Of a stretch of 35,688 bases of DNA, positions 10,706-32,698 are shown one piece after another. Source of the stretch: Prevotella sp. (GTDB taxonomy: Bacteria > Bacteroidota > Bacteroidia > Bacteroidales > Bacteroidaceae); NCBI GenBank assembly GCA_017623155.1, contig JAGAPR010000042.1, positions 1 through 35,688 of the forward strand, in the 5' to 3' direction. Both the position numbers and the translations under genes were made by a program. The notes under the pieces were generated by a model. That model did not search any database. It saw only the letters and a list, made by a program, of their open reading frames with translations, and was not told where the DNA came from. Numbering within the stretch: the first letter of the stretch is position 1; each line of letters opens with the position of its first letter.

Positions 10706-10706
10706 A

Positions 10707-10811
10707 TTACAATTGTTTTGTAATCCTGTTACAAATACTTTGTAATCGGATTACAAGAGCTTTGTAATCCGATTACAAGAGCTTTGTACTGATGTTACAA
10801 GGCCGTTGTAA
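10707..10811. repeat. TTGTAA/TTACAA palindrome array (11-bp arm period)
   Basis: Four 17-base palindromes start at 10718, 10740, 10762 and 10784, a period of exactly 22 bp with 5-base spacers: TTGTAA and TTACAA arms around cores TCCTG, TCGGA, TCCGA and a degenerate TGATG. An in-phase half site TTACAA precedes (10707) and an in-phase TTGTAA follows (10806). Counting arms, ten hexamers in alternating orientation are spaced every 11 bp; one (10784) has a single changed base. Geometry is the same as in the arrays at 38-120 and 32595-32677, although the arm sequence differs. Confidence 0.9.
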
Positions 10812-11121: not shown

Positions 11122-12366
11122 ATGTATCACAAAAATAAACGTAGATTAACAAGCACCATGACATATATTGTCAGGCGGATTAAATCATGGCAGAGAAATA
11201 CCCACTTCCTTTGCTGGGATCATGTGTTTGTATGTCTCATGATATATATAATAGGTGGATTGTTGGCTTTCGCCTCGATAAACTTCTCGATATTCAGTCC
11301 CATGAAGCGCGCTCTTGAAGATTTCTCAATGACCGATGTTTACTATGAAATACAGCGTGGCGGCGAACTTGACATGAATTCGGACATCGTGCTCGTCGAC
11401 ATGACGCGCCAACGAATGCGGGGAGACATCGCCCGAACGATACACGAGATAAACAAATGCCGGCCGAAAGTTCTTGTGATAGACATCATTTTCGAGCGCG
11501 AGGGCGACGACACGATGGGAAACATCGATCTCATCAACGCCATTAACGAAAGGCGCGAAAATACCGTATTGTCATGTAAGCTGACCGGTTACGACCCGTC
11601 GGAAAGTTCGTTCAGAAACAGGGTTTGCTCGTTTTTCAGTGCTTTTGACGATTATAACTGGGCCTACGGCAATGTGGTACAGACTCATTCGGGTGGTTGC
11701 ATCAGGCGTTACTCTCTCTCACAGAAATTCACCGGCGAGCCCATCTATTCGCTTCCGTACAAAGCAGCCTGCATGTATTCAGGCGTCAAGCCATCGGCCG
11801 AAGAGCCTAACGAGCGCATCATCGTCTACGGCAACACCGATTTCCCCGTCGTGCAATACGACGAAGTGGCACAAAACTCCTCCATGCTCAAAGACAAAAT
11901 AGTCATTCTCGGCACCATTTCCTCCGAGGAAGACTCTCACGTCACCCCTATCGGCAAAATGGCGGGCATGAAAATACAGGCTTATTCCATACAATCTTAT
12001 CTCGAACACCGCACTATCAATCAGATGAGCCTTGGCATGAGCCTGTTCATCGCCTTTCTGCTCTGCTATCTGTCGGCATGGGTCGGCTACATGATTTCAC
12101 GAACACCGCCACCGGCTTGTCTGTATACCCAGAAATTTTATTACTGCGCCATGGCGGCATTGCTCGCATGGATTTCTTTCATCTGCTTTGTGAAATTCGG
12201 CTATAACGTAAACCTCCTCTACCCATTGCTCGGTATGGCACTTGTCGAAGAGGCCCGCCTGCACTACAAATGGATAGTGGCCACATTCCAGTCAAGCTCC
12301 CGATGGCGATTTGCCGACAGGTCTATATATAAAATGGTAACGAAAAAGAAAGATGAAGATGAATAG
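11122..12366 (+). CDS. CHASE2-type membrane sensor protein without output domain
   Basis: A 414-residue inner membrane protein. One TM helix (about 35-55) is followed by an extracytoplasmic domain of about 245 residues that resembles CHASE2 sensory domains: DIVLVDMTRQ near the start, a KVLVIDIIFE strand, and the closing LKDKIVILGTISSEEDSHVTP region. Two or three more TM helices follow (about 302-327, 339-361 and possibly 368-385), then a short basic cytoplasmic tail ending KKKDEDE. CHASE2 usually precedes a kinase, cyclase or diguanylate cyclase domain; here none is present. First gene of the operon, overlapping the caspase gene by 14 bases. The ligand is unknown. The domain call is by pattern and I am fairly, not fully, sure. 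Confidence 0.72.
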   Translation: MYHKNKRRLTSTMTYIVRRIKSWQRNTHFLCWDHVFVCLMIYIIGGLLAFASINFSIFSPMKRALEDFSMTDVYYEIQRGGELDMNSDIVLVDMTRQRMRGDIARTIHEINKCRPKVLVIDIIFEREGDDTMGNIDLINAINERRENTVLSCKLTGYDPSESSFRNRVCSFFSAFDDYNWAYGNVVQTHSGGCIRRYSLSQKFTGEPIYSLPYKAACMYSGVKPSAEEPNERIIVYGNTDFPVVQYDEVAQNSSMLKDKIVILGTISSEEDSHVTPIGKMAGMKIQAYSIQSYLEHRTINQMSLGMSLFIAFLLCYLSAWVGYMISRTPPPACLYTQKFYYCAMAALLAWISFICFVKFGYNVNLLYPLLGMALVEEARLHYKWIVATFQSSSRWRFADRSIYKMVTKKKDEDE

Positions 12367-13945
12367 GATTTTTACTTTCGTTTTTATGATATTCCTCAAT
12401 GCTGTCGCCGTGATGGCGGCAGACAATGCCGACGACTGGCTCAAGAAAGGCGACGAGTTGTATGATGCCGGACGGTATAAGGAAGCGGCGGAACTTTATT
12501 TGCGAGCCGCCGAAGCGGGCAATGCTGAGGCCCAGTTTAAAACCGGTTACGCATGTTACAACGGCGAAGGCACGGCCAAAGACTATGCGTCGGCGGCCAT
12601 GTGGTTCAAGCGTGCCGCACGAAACGGTTTCGCAAAGGCCGAATACAACCTCGCTTATTGCTACATGAACGGCCGCGGAGTGCCACGGGACTACACAAAG
12701 GCCGAACAGCTCTTGAAGCAATCGGCCGGCAAGGGACTGCGCGAGGCGTGCCTTACGCTTGCCGAGTGTTATGCCGAAGGTATACTCGTGGAGCAGGATA
12801 AGGATGAGAGCGAGCGATGGAAAGCGAAAGCCGAAGGCCGAAAAGAAGAGCCCAAGCCCGTGGTAATAGTAAAACAGGAAGAGAAAAAGACACCGGCGGC
12901 CGCCACACGACCGGCCCAGCCCGTGGTGAAGATACTCTACCCCGAAGACCAGTCGATGTTTCACACCGATGTGGTAAAGCTGAAATATCAGCTCATTGCC
13001 GGCGGAGCAGAAGCTGAAACGGATGTCAACGTGTATGTGGACGGAGTGAAACAGCCGAAGACCCGTGCCGTGAGACAGGCAGGAATGATAGATGTCAACG
13101 TTCCGTCGCACGACTGCACGGTAATGATATACGCCACAAACAACAACGGAAACAGCGAGCCGGCGACTATAAGACTTATCCGCGAGAACGTGGCGCAGGC
13201 CGAACTTCCGAAACTTTTCGCCGTGGCCGTGGGCGTGGGAGAATACAACAACGACAAATTGCCAAATCTGAAGCTCACATGCAAGGATGCCGGCGACTTC
13301 GCCACGGCCGTTGCCGCGAAAAAAGGACTGCCGTTTGCCGACGTGCAAGTGAAACTGTTGCGCGACAGCGAAGCCACAAGAGCCGACATTTTCGAGGCAA
13401 TGGAGTGGCTCGCACAGGAGGCATCGCCCGGCGATGTGTGCATATTCTTTTTTGCAGGACACGGCTTTCGCGACCAGAAAGACCGCTTCTTTTTCATGCC
13501 TTACCATGCAAGTCCCGACAAATTGTACGACTGTTTCAGCGCATCCGACTTCCGGATGGCTGCCGAAGAGATTAACTGCAAGTTGCTGATATTCGTAGAC
13601 GCCTGCTATTCCGGCGGCTTGTTCGAAGGCAGTCGCTCGGCTGCCGCCACGCATTTCGTCGAGCAATTGCGTCGCGCAAAGAACGGAATGCTCCTCTATG
13701 CGTCCAGCGCATCAGACACAAAATCAAACGAAGACCCCGCATGGGGCAACGGAGCTTTCACCAAAGCACTCGTGGAAGCATTCGGAGGTGCCGCCCGCAG
13801 AGACGGCGACGAGGGCTTGTCGACACAGGAATTGGAGATGTATCTGTATCGGCAAGTACGTAAAACAACCGATTTCAGGCAGACACCGATATTCATAAAC
13901 CCCGGTGGAATGGAACACTTTAATATTTTTACTTATGAGAATTAA
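12353..13945 (+). CDS. Exported Sel1-repeat caspase-family protease
   Basis: A 530-residue protein. The N-terminus (MKMNRIF then a hydrophobic core, likely cut after AVMA at about 22) is a signal peptide. Residues about 30-160 are Sel1/TPR-like repeats (ACYNGEGTAKDYASAAMWF, CYMNGRGVPRDYTKAEQLL). A Lys/Glu/Pro/Ala-rich linker and an Ig-like beta segment (about 190-280) follow. Residues about 287-525 are a caspase-like (peptidase C14) domain with the catalytic pair in FFAGHG (H370) and DACYSGG (C418). Both catalytic residues are present, so activity is plausible. Overlap with the CHASE2 gene (14 bases) and with the next gene (11 bases) suggests translational coupling. An ATG two codons downstream (12359) is an equally possible start. 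The substrate is unknown. Confidence 0.9.
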   Translation: MKMNRIFTFVFMIFLNAVAVMAADNADDWLKKGDELYDAGRYKEAAELYLRAAEAGNAEAQFKTGYACYNGEGTAKDYASAAMWFKRAARNGFAKAEYNLAYCYMNGRGVPRDYTKAEQLLKQSAGKGLREACLTLAECYAEGILVEQDKDESERWKAKAEGRKEEPKPVVIVKQEEKKTPAAATRPAQPVVKILYPEDQSMFHTDVVKLKYQLIAGGAEAETDVNVYVDGVKQPKTRAVRQAGMIDVNVPSHDCTVMIYATNNNGNSEPATIRLIRENVAQAELPKLFAVAVGVGEYNNDKLPNLKLTCKDAGDFATAVAAKKGLPFADVQVKLLRDSEATRADIFEAMEWLAQEASPGDVCIFFFAGHGFRDQKDRFFFMPYHASPDKLYDCFSASDFRMAAEEINCKLLIFVDACYSGGLFEGSRSAAATHFVEQLRRAKNGMLLYASSASDTKSNEDPAWGNGAFTKALVEAFGGAARRDGDEGLSTQELEMYLYRQVRKTTDFRQTPIFINPGGMEHFNIFTYEN

Positions 13946-14843
13946 ACTGTTTTTAATGCTGATGATACTGCCGTTGATCACCGTCTCGGCACAGCAATAC
14001 ACAGTATATTCGGTTGCCGGCGACGTGTTTGTGAAAGAAAACGGCCGCGAAGTGCGGCTTAAACCGCGCAAGACGATAACCGCCGGCACCGTGTTAAGGA
14101 TAGAAAATGAAAGTGCCGTGACCGTTCTTGACGAGCGAAACAGCAAGATGTTCTCGATGACCGAGACCGGGACAAGCACTGCCGGAAAGCTGATAGCCGG
14201 AAAGAAAAGCAGCGCCAAGAACCTGTCGAAGCAATACATGGGCTATCTCGTAAAGCAACTCTTCGCCTCGGGAAGCAAGCAGATGTCTCACCCCGACACC
14301 TACATGCAATCCACAGCCACGGCATACCGCTCGGAAGCATTCGACTCTTTGATGCTCAGAAGCGTGGCGGCGGCCATCGCCGAATGTGCAACGGGAAACG
14401 GGAACGCGGAGAAAGCGTTTGCAGTAAGCGGCAAACAGCCGTCTTCCGACCTTGATGTCAGCTTTGAACTCGTGTCGTGCGACACGGGAGAAACGCTCGG
14501 ACGCGATGTGGAAGGAAACACAGGATGCTATGTAAGAGTACGAAACGGAACAGACGAACTGCTTTACGTGAACGTACTTAATATAGACGCCTCGGGCAAC
14601 AAGTATCTCGTGCTGCCGGTAGACTCGGCCTCCTCATGCTCGCATCTGCTCGTACCGCCGATGAGTACGGTGGCTTTCAAGTCGGAACCGATGATATTCG
14701 GCGATACGGCATCGGAAGAATCGTTCCTCCTTGTAGCCACGGAAGAACCGGTGGATTTCAGTATTCTGATGAGTCCCATAAAGCCGTCGGAGGGCAGCCG
14801 CATGCGCACGGGACTGTTCGGCCGGCGTTTCAGTGTCAAATAA
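13935..14843 (+). CDS. Exported FecR-like / DUF4384-like protein
   Basis: A 302-residue exported protein with a signal peptide (MRIKLFLMLMILPLITVSA, cut before QQYTV). The next 70 residues (YSVAGDVFVKENGREVRLKP ... TAGTVLRIENESAVTVLDE) resemble the beta-rich FecR-type domain. The C-terminal third (YVNVLNIDASGNKYLVLPVD ... SFLLVATEEPVDFSIL) resembles DUF4384, a domain often found with caspase-like proteases. The start at 13935 is chosen because it begins the signal peptide and overlaps the caspase gene stop by 11 bases; an ATG 30 bases upstream adds ten non-signal residues. It may bind or regulate the protease encoded just before it; that is inference from context. Confidence 0.68.
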   Translation: MRIKLFLMLMILPLITVSAQQYTVYSVAGDVFVKENGREVRLKPRKTITAGTVLRIENESAVTVLDERNSKMFSMTETGTSTAGKLIAGKKSSAKNLSKQYMGYLVKQLFASGSKQMSHPDTYMQSTATAYRSEAFDSLMLRSVAAAIAECATGNGNAEKAFAVSGKQPSSDLDVSFELVSCDTGETLGRDVEGNTGCYVRVRNGTDELLYVNVLNIDASGNKYLVLPVDSASSCSHLLVPPMSTVAFKSEPMIFGDTASEESFLLVATEEPVDFSILMSPIKPSEGSRMRTGLFGRRFSVK

Positions 14844-14859
14844 ACAATGCGATAAAGAG

Positions 14860-15513
14860 ATGAAAAGACTGATAACTAAAATCTTTCCGATAGCGGTTTT
14901 GATGATGATGCCGTGCATTTCGGCATCGGGAACCGACAAAGTCGATGCCGACAGGATACTGTTCGAGTTACTGTCGGACAGCCATGTTGTGGAAAACTGG
15001 CACGAGCCGCTCGCCATTAACGACCGTTCACTGCGCAAAACGGCTGAAGATGGGCTTTTTCTTGTAGAAGGAAAGGCTTTTCAAGTAAACTCATTGCGCT
15101 CCGACTTCTATGTCGTCAAGGAAAAAAGCGGTTGGAAACCGGTTGAAGACAAGCGCTATCCTATGGAAACAGCCGTCAATCTTCTGCTGAACAGGATAGA
15201 GAACAACAAACACGGATTGATGATAACCCATCATCAGTATGGCGGAAAAAATCCCCGCGTGATGCTTCAGATGCAGGTGCTTTATGACTTATTGGCCCGC
15301 AACATGAAAATCTATTGCAGCGTGACGAGCATAAACGCGTCTGAAATGCAGGCCGTTCTCGTGTTTCACAACGAAAAAAGAAATTTCATACACATGCTTC
15401 GCGTGACAATACCGACAGACAAACTGTTCAAGTCAGACAGCATGCTGACGGCCGATATGTATACAAATATACCGCAAGATAACATTAAATCAATATTCAA
15501 GGATAAGAAATAA
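14860..15513 (+). CDS. Exported protein of unknown family
   Basis: I do not recognise this 217-residue protein. It has a signal peptide (MKRLITKIFPIAVLMMMPCISA, then SGTDKVDAD). The mature part is mixed alpha/beta with no cysteine cluster or repeat that I can name; two segments look like core strands (AFQVNSLRSDFYVVKE, MQAVLVFHNEKRNFIHMLRV). ATG 14860 is chosen over 14833 because it starts the signal peptide. It begins 16 bases after the DUF4384-like gene and ends 6 bases before the NTF2-like gene, so it belongs to the same operon and, like its neighbours, acts in the envelope. Confidence 0.75.
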   Translation: MKRLITKIFPIAVLMMMPCISASGTDKVDADRILFELLSDSHVVENWHEPLAINDRSLRKTAEDGLFLVEGKAFQVNSLRSDFYVVKEKSGWKPVEDKRYPMETAVNLLLNRIENNKHGLMITHHQYGGKNPRVMLQMQVLYDLLARNMKIYCSVTSINASEMQAVLVFHNEKRNFIHMLRVTIPTDKLFKSDSMLTADMYTNIPQDNIKSIFKDKK

Positions 15514-15519
15514 GCTGAA

Positions 15520-16515
15520 ATGAACTGTTTAAAGACAAGACGATTTGGTGCCTTAATCATGGCATTTACAGTATGGCTGTGCACAGCCGCAGGCGAGACC
15601 TCATTCAAAATCATTGAGGGAATGGGCGACACGGAACTGAAAAAGGTGATGGAAACGAATGTGAGCAGCATGATAAACGCATTCAGAACGGCCGCCGACG
15701 AGCAATCGAAAAGCGTGAAACTGTCGAAAGACAACTTCACATCCGATGCTGTCGACGAGATAAAGGAGATGTGGAAAAGTAGCGCGATGAGCTGTCCGCC
15801 GATGAACATTATGAGCCGTTGCCTCAAAACGAGCACCGGATGGCAGATAAGAGGCATCCCTGTGGATATGGTGGAAGCCGACGAAAGCGAGGCAAGACAG
15901 GAGTTGACAATAGATTTTCTGCCGTCGGGCAAAATCAGCGGCGTGCATATCGCCATCGCCATGCACAGGTATGAACAGATAATGGCAGAGAAAGAATCGG
16001 AGTTAGACTACGCAAGACGACAGGTGATAATAAACTTTGTGGAAAACTTCCGCACCGCATACAACCGCAAAGACATAAAGATGCTCAACAGCGTTTTCAG
16101 CGACAAAGCATTGATTATTACGGGAAAGGTGATTACGGAAAAGCCCAATTCGGATGTAGAGCGCATGACACTGGCAAACAACAAGGTGGTATACATCAAC
16201 CAGACAAAGCAGGAATATCTCAGAAAGCTGGCCGGAGTGTTCAAAATAACCAAATACATCAACGTGAAGTTTGATGACATAGAGGTGGTGCAACATCCCA
16301 AATTCGACGATGTTTACGGCGTTACACTGAAACAGTACTGGCACACCGACCGCTACTCCGACGAGGGTTATCTATTCCTTCTCGTGGATTTCAGAGACAC
16401 CGACAACCCGCAGATACAGGTAAGAACGTGGCAACCGTATAAAGACAAGCACGGCCAAGTGATCACACAGAAAAAAGACGTGTTCCATCTCGGCTCGTTC
16501 CGTATCGTGAGATAA
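15520..16515 (+). CDS. Exported protein with C-terminal NTF2-like domain
   Basis: A 331-residue exported protein. The signal peptide is MNCLKTRRFGALIMAFTVWL to about residue 24. Residues 25-160 are an alpha/beta region unlike anything I can name. Residues about 165-331 look like an NTF2/SnoaL fold: a long helix with VENFRTAYNRKDIKMLNSVF (the common 'Y..KD...L..vFs' pattern), then strands with DVYGVTLKQYWHTDRYSDEG, GYLFLLVDFRD and IQVRTWQP. NTF2-like domains are ligand-binding or enzymatic cups; no catalytic residues can be assigned. Fifth gene of the operon, 6 bases after the previous stop. Confidence 0.7.
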   Translation: MNCLKTRRFGALIMAFTVWLCTAAGETSFKIIEGMGDTELKKVMETNVSSMINAFRTAADEQSKSVKLSKDNFTSDAVDEIKEMWKSSAMSCPPMNIMSRCLKTSTGWQIRGIPVDMVEADESEARQELTIDFLPSGKISGVHIAIAMHRYEQIMAEKESELDYARRQVIINFVENFRTAYNRKDIKMLNSVFSDKALIITGKVITEKPNSDVERMTLANNKVVYINQTKQEYLRKLAGVFKITKYINVKFDDIEVVQHPKFDDVYGVTLKQYWHTDRYSDEGYLFLLVDFRDTDNPQIQVRTWQPYKDKHGQVITQKKDVFHLGSFRIVR

Positions 16516-16550
16516 GAACGAAACAGAATTAACAATACAATAAATATACT

Positions 16551-17915
16551 ATGCAGAAAAGAAATCTTATCGCCGCACTGCTGCTGATAGTGTGCAGCAC
16601 GGCATTTTCTCAGAAAAAACTGGAAGTGGAAGACAAGACACAAAGCACCGATGTCTATTCGAGCGAAGGCAACGAGGCGGCGGTGATGATACGCTGCGAC
16701 CGGTCGATACCTCTCACTTTCGCCTCTTCGATGGACAAAAGCGCCGACCCGTTCCGTACGGAATTGCAAGGCTCCGACTCAGTGTACTACATTGCTTTCC
16801 CCACCGGCAACCGCTATCGCGGCCGTGTGCTCACGATTATGTCACCGGGATACGAGCAAAAAGAGATCTCGCTCGATTTAAATCCGAAAGCATTGCTCAC
16901 CTTTGCCCTATCCGATCCCGACGCAATTGTGGGCAAGGGATGTTATGTGGAACATCGGAACAAGGCACAATTGGAAATAAAGAATTCTAACTACGAGCAG
17001 GCAAAAGACCTGTTTGAGGAGGCCGTGATGTGCTCAGACGTGGATACAGCCGAGAACAATGCCAACCGCCGGATGGTCGACTCGCTGATATATTACAGAA
17101 GCATGGGCGAAAACGCCTTTAAACTGCTCGACTATAAGACTGCCGGCGACTACTACGAAAAAGCGATGATGCTCAACCCGTATGACAACTACGCCTCAAA
17201 CAGATTTTCCGTATGTCAGAAAAACTATAAAGACGAGTGCGGAATGATATATAACAGAGCCGAGTTCTGTTTCAACGAGAAAGATTATGTGAAAGCGCGC
17301 GAACTGTATCAGCAGGTTGTCGACAAGGAATGCGACAACATGCTGATGGCATCAGACAGGATAAACATCATCGATGCCTACATGACGGCAAAGAAAAACC
17401 ATTCGCGGGTTATCACATACGAGTACAGAAAAGACACTCCCGTGGGATTATCTTACGGTAAATACAACATGCACAAGGTAGGCGGTTTCATACAGTTCGA
17501 CTTCAACAACACCGTATTCGATGCCATGAGAAGCGAGTGTAAGTATGGCGACACAAAATTCCCCGAGTTTAACACAGCATTCGGATGGACCTTGAAAATT
17601 GTCAATCCGGTATGGATCTATTTCGGACCGGGCTTCACAGGAAAGATGTACTACGGCACATACATGGAAGACAACTACCCCGGATATAAAGATGACAAGA
17701 TAGAAGACCAGACGGGAATGGATGAGAAAGAGATAAAAGAGGCCAACAAGAAATCCAATTTCGCTTTCGCCATATCTCCGGTAGTGGGTGTTTGCGCCAA
17801 ATACAGCTACTTCGCCGTGCGCCTGACATATCAGTATCGCTGGTCGATAAAATCCGAACTCGACGATTTTATGGGCAAGAGCAGAATTTCGTTCGGTGTC
17901 GGTGTGGCGTTCTGA
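16551..17915 (+). CDS. Exported TPR protein with beta-barrel-like C-terminus
   Basis: A 454-residue exported protein (signal peptide MQKRNLIAALLLIVCSTAFS, cut before QKK). Residues 25-125 form a beta-rich region that may be PEGA- or Ig-like. Residues about 139-280 contain TPR-like helices (YEQAKDLFEEAVMC, AGDYYEKAMMLNPYDNYA, DYVKARELYQQVV). Residues about 305-454 alternate polar and aromatic residues in a way typical of outer membrane strands (WTLKIVNPVWIYFGPGFTGK, YFAVRLTYQYRWSI) and end with a C-terminal phenylalanine, the usual end of outer membrane barrels. It could anchor the operon products at the outer membrane; that is inference. Last gene of the run, 35 bases after the NTF2-like gene, followed by a long hairpin. 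Confidence 0.72.
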   Translation: MQKRNLIAALLLIVCSTAFSQKKLEVEDKTQSTDVYSSEGNEAAVMIRCDRSIPLTFASSMDKSADPFRTELQGSDSVYYIAFPTGNRYRGRVLTIMSPGYEQKEISLDLNPKALLTFALSDPDAIVGKGCYVEHRNKAQLEIKNSNYEQAKDLFEEAVMCSDVDTAENNANRRMVDSLIYYRSMGENAFKLLDYKTAGDYYEKAMMLNPYDNYASNRFSVCQKNYKDECGMIYNRAEFCFNEKDYVKARELYQQVVDKECDNMLMASDRINIIDAYMTAKKNHSRVITYEYRKDTPVGLSYGKYNMHKVGGFIQFDFNNTVFDAMRSECKYGDTKFPEFNTAFGWTLKIVNPVWIYFGPGFTGKMYYGTYMEDNYPGYKDDKIEDQTGMDEKEIKEANKKSNFAFAISPVVGVCAKYSYFAVRLTYQYRWSIKSELDDFMGKSRISFGVGVAF

Positions 17916-32585: not shown

Positions 32586-32698
32586 CTTGTTTTCCAATTA
32601 GGCCGTAATTGCATTCCAATTAGGCCGTAATTGGACGCTCGTTAGGCCGTAAATGCAATGCAATTACGGCCTTATTGCAACGCAAAAACACCCGAAAA
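32586..32698. repeat. Four-unit palindromic repeat array, copy B
   Basis: Second copy of the element at 29-141. Units start at 32595, 32617, 32639 and 32661, again every 22 bp. Units 1 and 2 are both CAATTAGGCCGTAATTG in forward orientation, whereas in copy A unit 2 is inverted. Units 3 and 4 match copy A in sequence and orientation with few changes. The spacers after units 2 to 4 differ more than the units. Confidence 0.9.

Follow-up and report, generated by a model that had tools for sequence, protein, structure and literature searches.

Bacterial caspases are discussed mostly as cytoplasmic proteases of cell death and defence, and the locus described here raises the question of what such a protease might do when it carries an export signal and is encoded beside a CHASE2 membrane protein. 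The locus lies in the window, by which we mean the whole stretch of DNA analysed (35,688 nucleotides). This is an entire contig (JAGAPR010000042.1) of a draft Prevotella sp. assembly (GCA_017623155.1) of 104 contigs and 83.8 % completeness, and the named genomes closest to it are recorded as Prevotella, one having come from sheep rumen. An earlier note on this DNA had described six same-strand genes, with overlaps of 14 and 11 bases and gaps of 16, 6 and 35 bases, and had given signal peptides to the products of all but the first. The ORF listing bears out this arrangement, and on inspection of the sequences the products of genes 2–6 all begin with a signal-peptide-like stretch, the weakest being that of gene 5, where no 19-residue window exceeded the threshold used. 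For both genes 3 and 4 an ATG start was chosen inside a longer GTG ORF. The genes (products P1–P6) and their main features are as follows.

11122..12366, + strand: P1, CHASE2 membrane protein of 414 aa (ORF listing and Pfam)
11323..12027, + strand: extracytoplasmic CHASE2 domain of P1 (Pfam CHASE2)
12353..13945, + strand: P2, exported Sel1-repeat/caspase protein (ORF listing and Pfam)
13217..13894, + strand: caspase (C14) domain of P2 (Pfam)
13460..13462, + strand: His370 codon of P2, expected catalytic His (AGHG, invariant among three caspases aligned)
13604..13606, + strand: Cys418 codon of P2, expected catalytic Cys (DACYSG, Cys invariant among three caspases aligned)
13935..14843, + strand: P3, exported partner with a retention-like N-domain and an Ig-like C-domain (ORF, model and fold look-up)
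13989..14216, + strand: retention-module-like N-domain of P3 (residues 19–94)
14316..14330, + strand: conserved linker motif of P3 (residues 128–132, ending in Arg132)
14860..15513, + strand: P4, exported, opening the putative added cassette (ORF and cassette homologues)
15520..16515, + strand: P5, exported, weak NTF2-type signal, putative added cassette (Pfam and homologues)
16551..17915, + strand: P6, exported TPR protein with a possible C-terminal barrel, putative added cassette (Pfam)

The first two genes are what they had been taken to be. P1 matches CHASE2 (PF05226) over residues 68–302 with 66.9 bits against a cut-off of 26.3, and its structure model (pLDDT 92.2, pTM 0.86) predicts transmembrane helices at residues 32–54, 304–326, 332–359 and 366–391, one before the CHASE2 domain and three after it. 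R100, D121, G264 and D271 are invariant across 47 aligned CHASE2 proteins. P1 has no cytoplasmic output domain of the kinase or cyclase kind, since Pfam finds no second domain in it and 23 residues follow the last helix (391 of 414). The ligands of CHASE2 are described as not known in the relevant part of PMC5192318. P2 combines a Sel1 match of 76.6 bits with a Peptidase_C14 domain (67.0 bits against a cut-off of 21.4) in which H370 and C418, the predicted catalytic pair, are both present, and a signal peptide is recognized by rule of thumb.

The third gene required a different description. The FecR-like and DUF4384-like regions read into it earlier do not hold up: FecR (PF04773) is absent among the Pfam families matched by 15 members of the P3 family at E ≤0.1, and DUF4384 (PF14326) scores 12.4 bits in P3 against a cut-off of 27. 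By a fold look-up, the N-domain of this 302 aa protein appears instead to have a retention-like fold, on a model of middling confidence (mean pLDDT 65.9) in which the helix before the Arg motif is poorly predicted. P3 falls below the cut-off for the LapA retention module NF033682 (16.8 against 50 bits), and four of the 15 family members match that family at E ≤0.1, the best at 4e-05. In three sister loci (L056, L061 and L063) the retention-like domain forms the N-terminus of a protein of 637–654 residues with a transglutaminase-like C-H-D stretch, recognized by eye; Pfam Transglut_core was sub-threshold in L061 (17.4 against 23 bits) and absent in the sister-locus proteins of L056, L111 and L122.

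To see which of the six genes belong together, named genomes were scanned with an alignment of the caspase region, which gave seven relatives. The order CHASE2–C14–P3 is kept in all seven (for CHASE2 in L106 and for gene 3 in L102, as shown by six-frame search and tblastn), and genes 4–6 are present in only two of them (L104 and L105), in the six-gene order of the window. In L102 and L103 the core occupies the same chromosomal site as in the window, with an fkp-like gene upstream and GSCFA and then murF–alr downstream (in L102 murF–alr has the opposite orientation); no more than about 10 bases separate the third gene from GSCFA, and genes 4–6 are missing between them. On the CHASE2 tree the window, L102 and L103 form one supported group, and L104 and L052 (on the same contig as L105) fall outside it, so that one loss of genes 4–6 in L102/L103 is the simplest reading. 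The earlier note had joined all six genes into one envelope system. Of this, the exported caspase with its CHASE2 sensor and an exported partner stands in seven of seven relatives, and the six genes as an obligate unit do not: among these relatives the caspase occurs without genes 4–6 (L102 and L103), and not without genes 1 and 3. The interpretation given in the note is partly supported; genes 1–3 are probably the functional core, and genes 4–6 a separately added cassette.

The link between CHASE2 and an exported protease extends well beyond these relatives. CHASE2 proteins of the P1 type are patchily distributed, with 57 genes in 51 of 301 family genomes, and their neighbours were counted by profiles on the same strand, within 8 kb or to the end of the stretch (often about 7 kb). 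On that scale a partner protein accompanies 42 of the 57, a CHAT protease 19, a C14 protease 20, either protease 39, and partner and protease together 28; CHAT and C14 are never found together. No clan-CD protease is in reach of the remaining 18, four of which (L071, L123, L132 and L145) lie at contig ends. Of the 15 loci in which no partner was matched, five (L134, L138, L140, L141 and L146) have beside CHASE2 a gene of cluster c7, and in a profile comparison the N-domain of this cluster resembles that of the partner (probability 89 %). Among 151 sampled family genomes, 49 carry C14 and 38 carry CHAT, at 86 and 58 listed places respectively, and from this density of about one listed place per genome the chance of finding C14 or CHAT in a 17-kb stretch is estimated at <1 %, a rough control, if a fairer one than the gene-5-anchored stretches considered below. 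On a CHASE2 tree of 60 rows, a quick one with open forks in which loci without a protease were uncounted, the protease type changes between CHAT and C14 at least five times, which indicates that receptor and partner combine with either clan-CD protease. TPR-CHAT proteases are of the Craspase/HetF type; the CHASE2-linked CHATs differ in that nearly all of them carry a signal peptide, judged by rule of thumb (in 18 of 20 rows, compared with 25 of 26 C14 rows), and in that they sit with CHASE2 and P3-like genes. The signal peptide was considered as a mark of CHASE2-linked proteases and dropped, as most unlinked proteases have one too (22 of 26 CHAT rows and 23 of 31 C14 rows). In one locus (L135:9404-10795) the C14-like protein beside CHASE2 also matches the Autotransporter beta-domain with 28.3 bits, which suggests a surface-anchored variant.

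The partner proteins share a short motif in the linker that follows the N-domain. An Arg occupies one alignment column in 40 of 48 partner proteins, and Gly29 and Arg132 are the sole invariant columns among 22 diverse ones. Independently of any alignment, the pattern small-small-x-x-Arg occurs within 60 residues after the N-domain in 38/48 (mean of 10.4 and maximum of 21 in 1000 shuffles) and [GA][ASVT][VI]xR in 20/48 (shuffle mean 0.5, maximum 4), excesses that are inflated because the choice of patterns was guided by the data themselves and the sequences share ancestry. A strict pattern drawn from the distant set alone was found in 3/48 partners (shuffle mean 0.2, maximum 2), and in an alignment-based control, for which short tails were realigned, no real column exceeded 27/48 (Arg) and shuffles reached 28 (Asp). 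In the distant set, from other families of the phylum, a comparable ...V-x-R stretch was counted by eye in 16 of 18 partners. When the partners are grouped by the protease at their locus, the Arg is kept by every CHAT-linked partner that received a call (18 of 18), by 13 of 16 C14-linked ones and by nine of 14 with no protease in the vicinity. Orthocaspases cleave after basic residues, as stated in the relevant part of PMC6426788. That the motif is retained where no protease is near weakens its interpretation as a mere caspase site.

This layout recalls a known system. In Lap-type adhesins a retention domain is followed by a targeting helix, a DP motif and then the LapG cut at [T/A/P]AAG, in the account given in the relevant part of PMC13090378, and LapA is cut after residue 108 according to a passage of PMC3032545. 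The core resembles LapD–LapG–LapA (and DvhD–DvhG) in having an inner-membrane receptor with a periplasmic domain and a periplasmic cysteine protease, and P3 appears to share with the adhesin a retention-like beta domain that leads through a helix into a flexible stretch bearing a short conserved motif; a DP lies shortly upstream of the Arg motif in five of 48 stretches. The differences are equally plain. The receptor is CHASE2 and has no c-di-GMP domain (by Pfam P1 matches CHASE2 alone, without GGDEF or EAL); the protease is C14 or CHAT and not the transglutaminase-like LapG type; P3 has a signal peptide and lacks adhesin repeats, and its motif ends in Arg and not in [T/A/P]AAG. By family, no Lap components were identified in the module.

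The composition and order of the core, its export signals and catalytic residues, the co-occurrence of its genes, the exchange of proteases and the conservation of the motif are observed, and our working hypothesis, to which we give a probability of about 0.4, is that genes 1–3 form a Lap-like relay whose receptor and protease families are unrelated to those of LapD and LapG. P1 would be a receptor in the inner membrane, with its CHASE2 domain in the periplasm and no output domain in the cytoplasm. It would sense a periplasmic signal through CHASE2 and would keep P3, the protease or both in an inactive complex; the signal would alter this complex, so that P2 is controlled through P3. P2 would be the output protease, with TPR-CHAT standing in for it in related loci, and it would cut P3 at or near the Arg132 motif, or another envelope protein. 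The three-gene set may in this way pass signals by proteolysis outside the cytoplasm. In a narrower version, which would amount to a new class of envelope signalling, the output-less CHASE2 governs an exported protease, caspase or CHAT, and this protease cleaves the retention-module-type partner behind the conserved Arg, so that a caspase-family protease takes the role of LapG; this version we consider rather doubtful. Exported clan-CD proteases are common without CHASE2, which counts against the relay, as do the 18 CHASE2 genes with no such protease in reach and the middling confidence of the P3 model.

The strongest competitor keeps the receptor and the partner and gives the motif another task. 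CHASE2 and the retention-like partner would be an older sensor pair, the Arg motif a putative docking peptide on CHASE2, and the recruited protease would cut other envelope proteins and not P3. Proteins of about 400 residues with CHASE2, no output domain and an adjoining partner occur in several other families of the phylum, and among the 19 phylum loci displayed C14 is present in four (L266, L272, L273 and L282) and CHAT in none; most other CHASE2 matches of the phylum search lie in open frames of about 720–760 residues. The protease-less pair is widespread and keeps the motif, and the CHASE2–partner pair looks older than the protease link. In L268:7633-9885 CHASE2 and the partner domain are fused in one protein of 750 residues that retains the Arg motif. 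The fusion counts for docking as it does for the relay, and the conservation of the motif whichever protease is present also favours docking. A further parallel is found in Burkholderiales, where, in the relevant section of PMC5192318, CHASE2 histidine kinases adjoin LysM-FecR genes. Since most of the loci in which partners from these other families keep the motif have no clan-CD protease within about 8 kb, the motif may serve for docking and not mark a cut site. The invariable Arg of the CHAT-linked partners speaks against docking, as does the layout of P3, which is the one found around the cut site of Lap adhesins. As the Arg motif outlives the protease link, the relay is weakened and docking on CHASE2 fits nearly as well; we regard docking as a tentative but serious possibility.

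A relay of three genes leaves P4–P6 to be accounted for. P5 carries a weak NTF2-type signal (Pfam Cds6_C NTF2-like, E 0.014), and P6 has TPRs above cut-off (Pfam TPR_2, 40 bits) and, plausibly, a C-terminal barrel. Gene-5 homologues occur in 94 of 301 family genomes; among the 30 gene-5 loci listed, gene-4 and gene-6 homologues both flank gene 5 in 19 (including the window and G295), and the other 11 have a gene-4-like gene nearby and no gene-6 match. Twenty gene-5-anchored stretches (313,877 bases) contained no CHASE2, partner, CHAT or C14, but they were hand-picked, mainly from the top-scoring gene-5 matches, and are not a neutral control because lower-scoring gene-5-type matches do adjoin C14 or CHASE2. 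Twelve further stretches, nine of them chosen since tables showed such neighbours, held gene-5-type domains mostly in proteins of 610–640 residues. In L290–L293 these domains adjoin C14 genes or lie within about 1.4 kb of them, without CHASE2; in L300 C14 is 6.2 kb away; in L294–L298 CHASE2 is encoded on the same strand at a distance of 6.6–15.5 kb; and the stretches of L299 and L301 contain no C14 and no CHASE2. The proximity to C14 in L290–L293 implies that the gene-5 family may have a caspase tie of its own, and the acquisition of the cassette may not have been accidental; in our reading P4–P6 form an added envelope cassette that perhaps serves as a local target or adaptor of caspases.

These neighbourhoods, together with the identical six genes and order in the window, L104 and L105, are what can be said for one six-gene envelope system in which P4–P6 work with the caspase and were lost in some relatives. 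That reading is nevertheless improbable, given that L102 and L103 have the core, minus genes 4–6, at the chromosomal site that it occupies in the window, and that other genomes have homologues of genes 4–6 as a group with no CHASE2 or caspase. As separate observations, a Sel1/TPR-type protein lies upstream of the cassette in L207, L208, L210 and L212 (L207_03 by Pfam, the rest by eye), and in L221 (G000:C3) the operon of gene-4 and gene-5 relatives also encodes a protein matching Tubulin_2 (158.5 bits) and an FGE-sulfatase/PEGA protein; in L215 their operon encodes a protein that by eye resembles the Tubulin_2 protein of L221. The two loci point to an envelope gene set with a tubulin-like member.

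A defence or programmed-death system, in which phage or damage triggers the caspase to kill the cell, would be in keeping with the match of P2 to the PADLOC caspase model (49.7 bits, E 8e-14) and with the bacterial caspases of conflict systems, some with CHASE2, that are described in the relevant part of PMC8195603. All of the proteins but the receptor look exported, however, no NTPase, TIR or nuclease was found by Pfam among the six, and P2 scores below the cut-off of the EACC1-caspase family (NCBIfam NF047832, 93.3 against 140 bits). PADLOC, moreover, gives nothing for the other five proteins at E up to 1, and its PtuA model matches the Sel1 part of P2 weakly (E 0.022); such a system seems unlikely here. 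Mere clustering of envelope genes that act separately could draw on the patchiness of the module (CHASE2 in 51 of 301 family genomes) and is very hard to reconcile with the tight overlaps, the phylum-wide pairing, the gene fusion, the mutual exclusion of CHAT and C14 and the high co-occurrence.

Parts of the proposed relay have precedents. CHASE2–caspase fusions are already known (PMC3501461, PMC8195603), as are CHASE2 kinases with LysM-FecR genes (PMC5192318), so far as the sections consulted describe them. The Burkholderiales operon (BiofilmReg, PMC5192318) resembles the core in that CHASE2 adjoins an exported, FecR-annotated partner; the output there, in the section concerned, is a cytoplasmic kinase and response regulator, whereas here an exported protease is the neighbour and P1 has no cytoplasmic domain. 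The caspase–CHASE2 link is common to the window, the metacaspase–CHASE2 fusion of Trichodesmium (PMC3501461) and EACC2-caspase–CHASE2 (PMC8195603), as the relevant parts of these papers present them, but the Trichodesmium caspase is placed in the cytoplasm by the authors in that part of the text, and here the caspase is encoded on its own as an exported protein, accompanied by a third partner. The section of PMC3501461 on metacaspase operons mentions signalling, protein-interaction and surface genes and no CHASE2–partner–protease set, and in the open-licence literature we found no description of a CHASE2–partner–exported protease module. In the Bacteroidota of gut and rumen, the module would provide caspases with a definite envelope function open to experiment, based on a caspase that is exported, that is swapped for CHAT beside a like receptor, and that has a candidate substrate with a conserved site; CHASE2, for its part, gains in P3 an experimentally accessible partner.

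The operon is preceded, between the fkp-like gene and P1, by a 22-base-period array of the palindrome TTGTAATCnGATTACAA (window 10706–10788). The genome from which the window derives contains 25 forward matches to TTGTAATCnGATTACAA with ≤2 mismatches, compared with one for a reversed-pattern control, and TTGTAATCnGATTACAA-type matches cluster as similar arrays on its contigs C11, C20, C42, C62, C83, C89 and C102. Two more 22-base-period arrays, with a unit near-identical to TTGTAATCnGATTACAA, lie near both ends of the contig, at 35–122 and 32592–32679 of the window.
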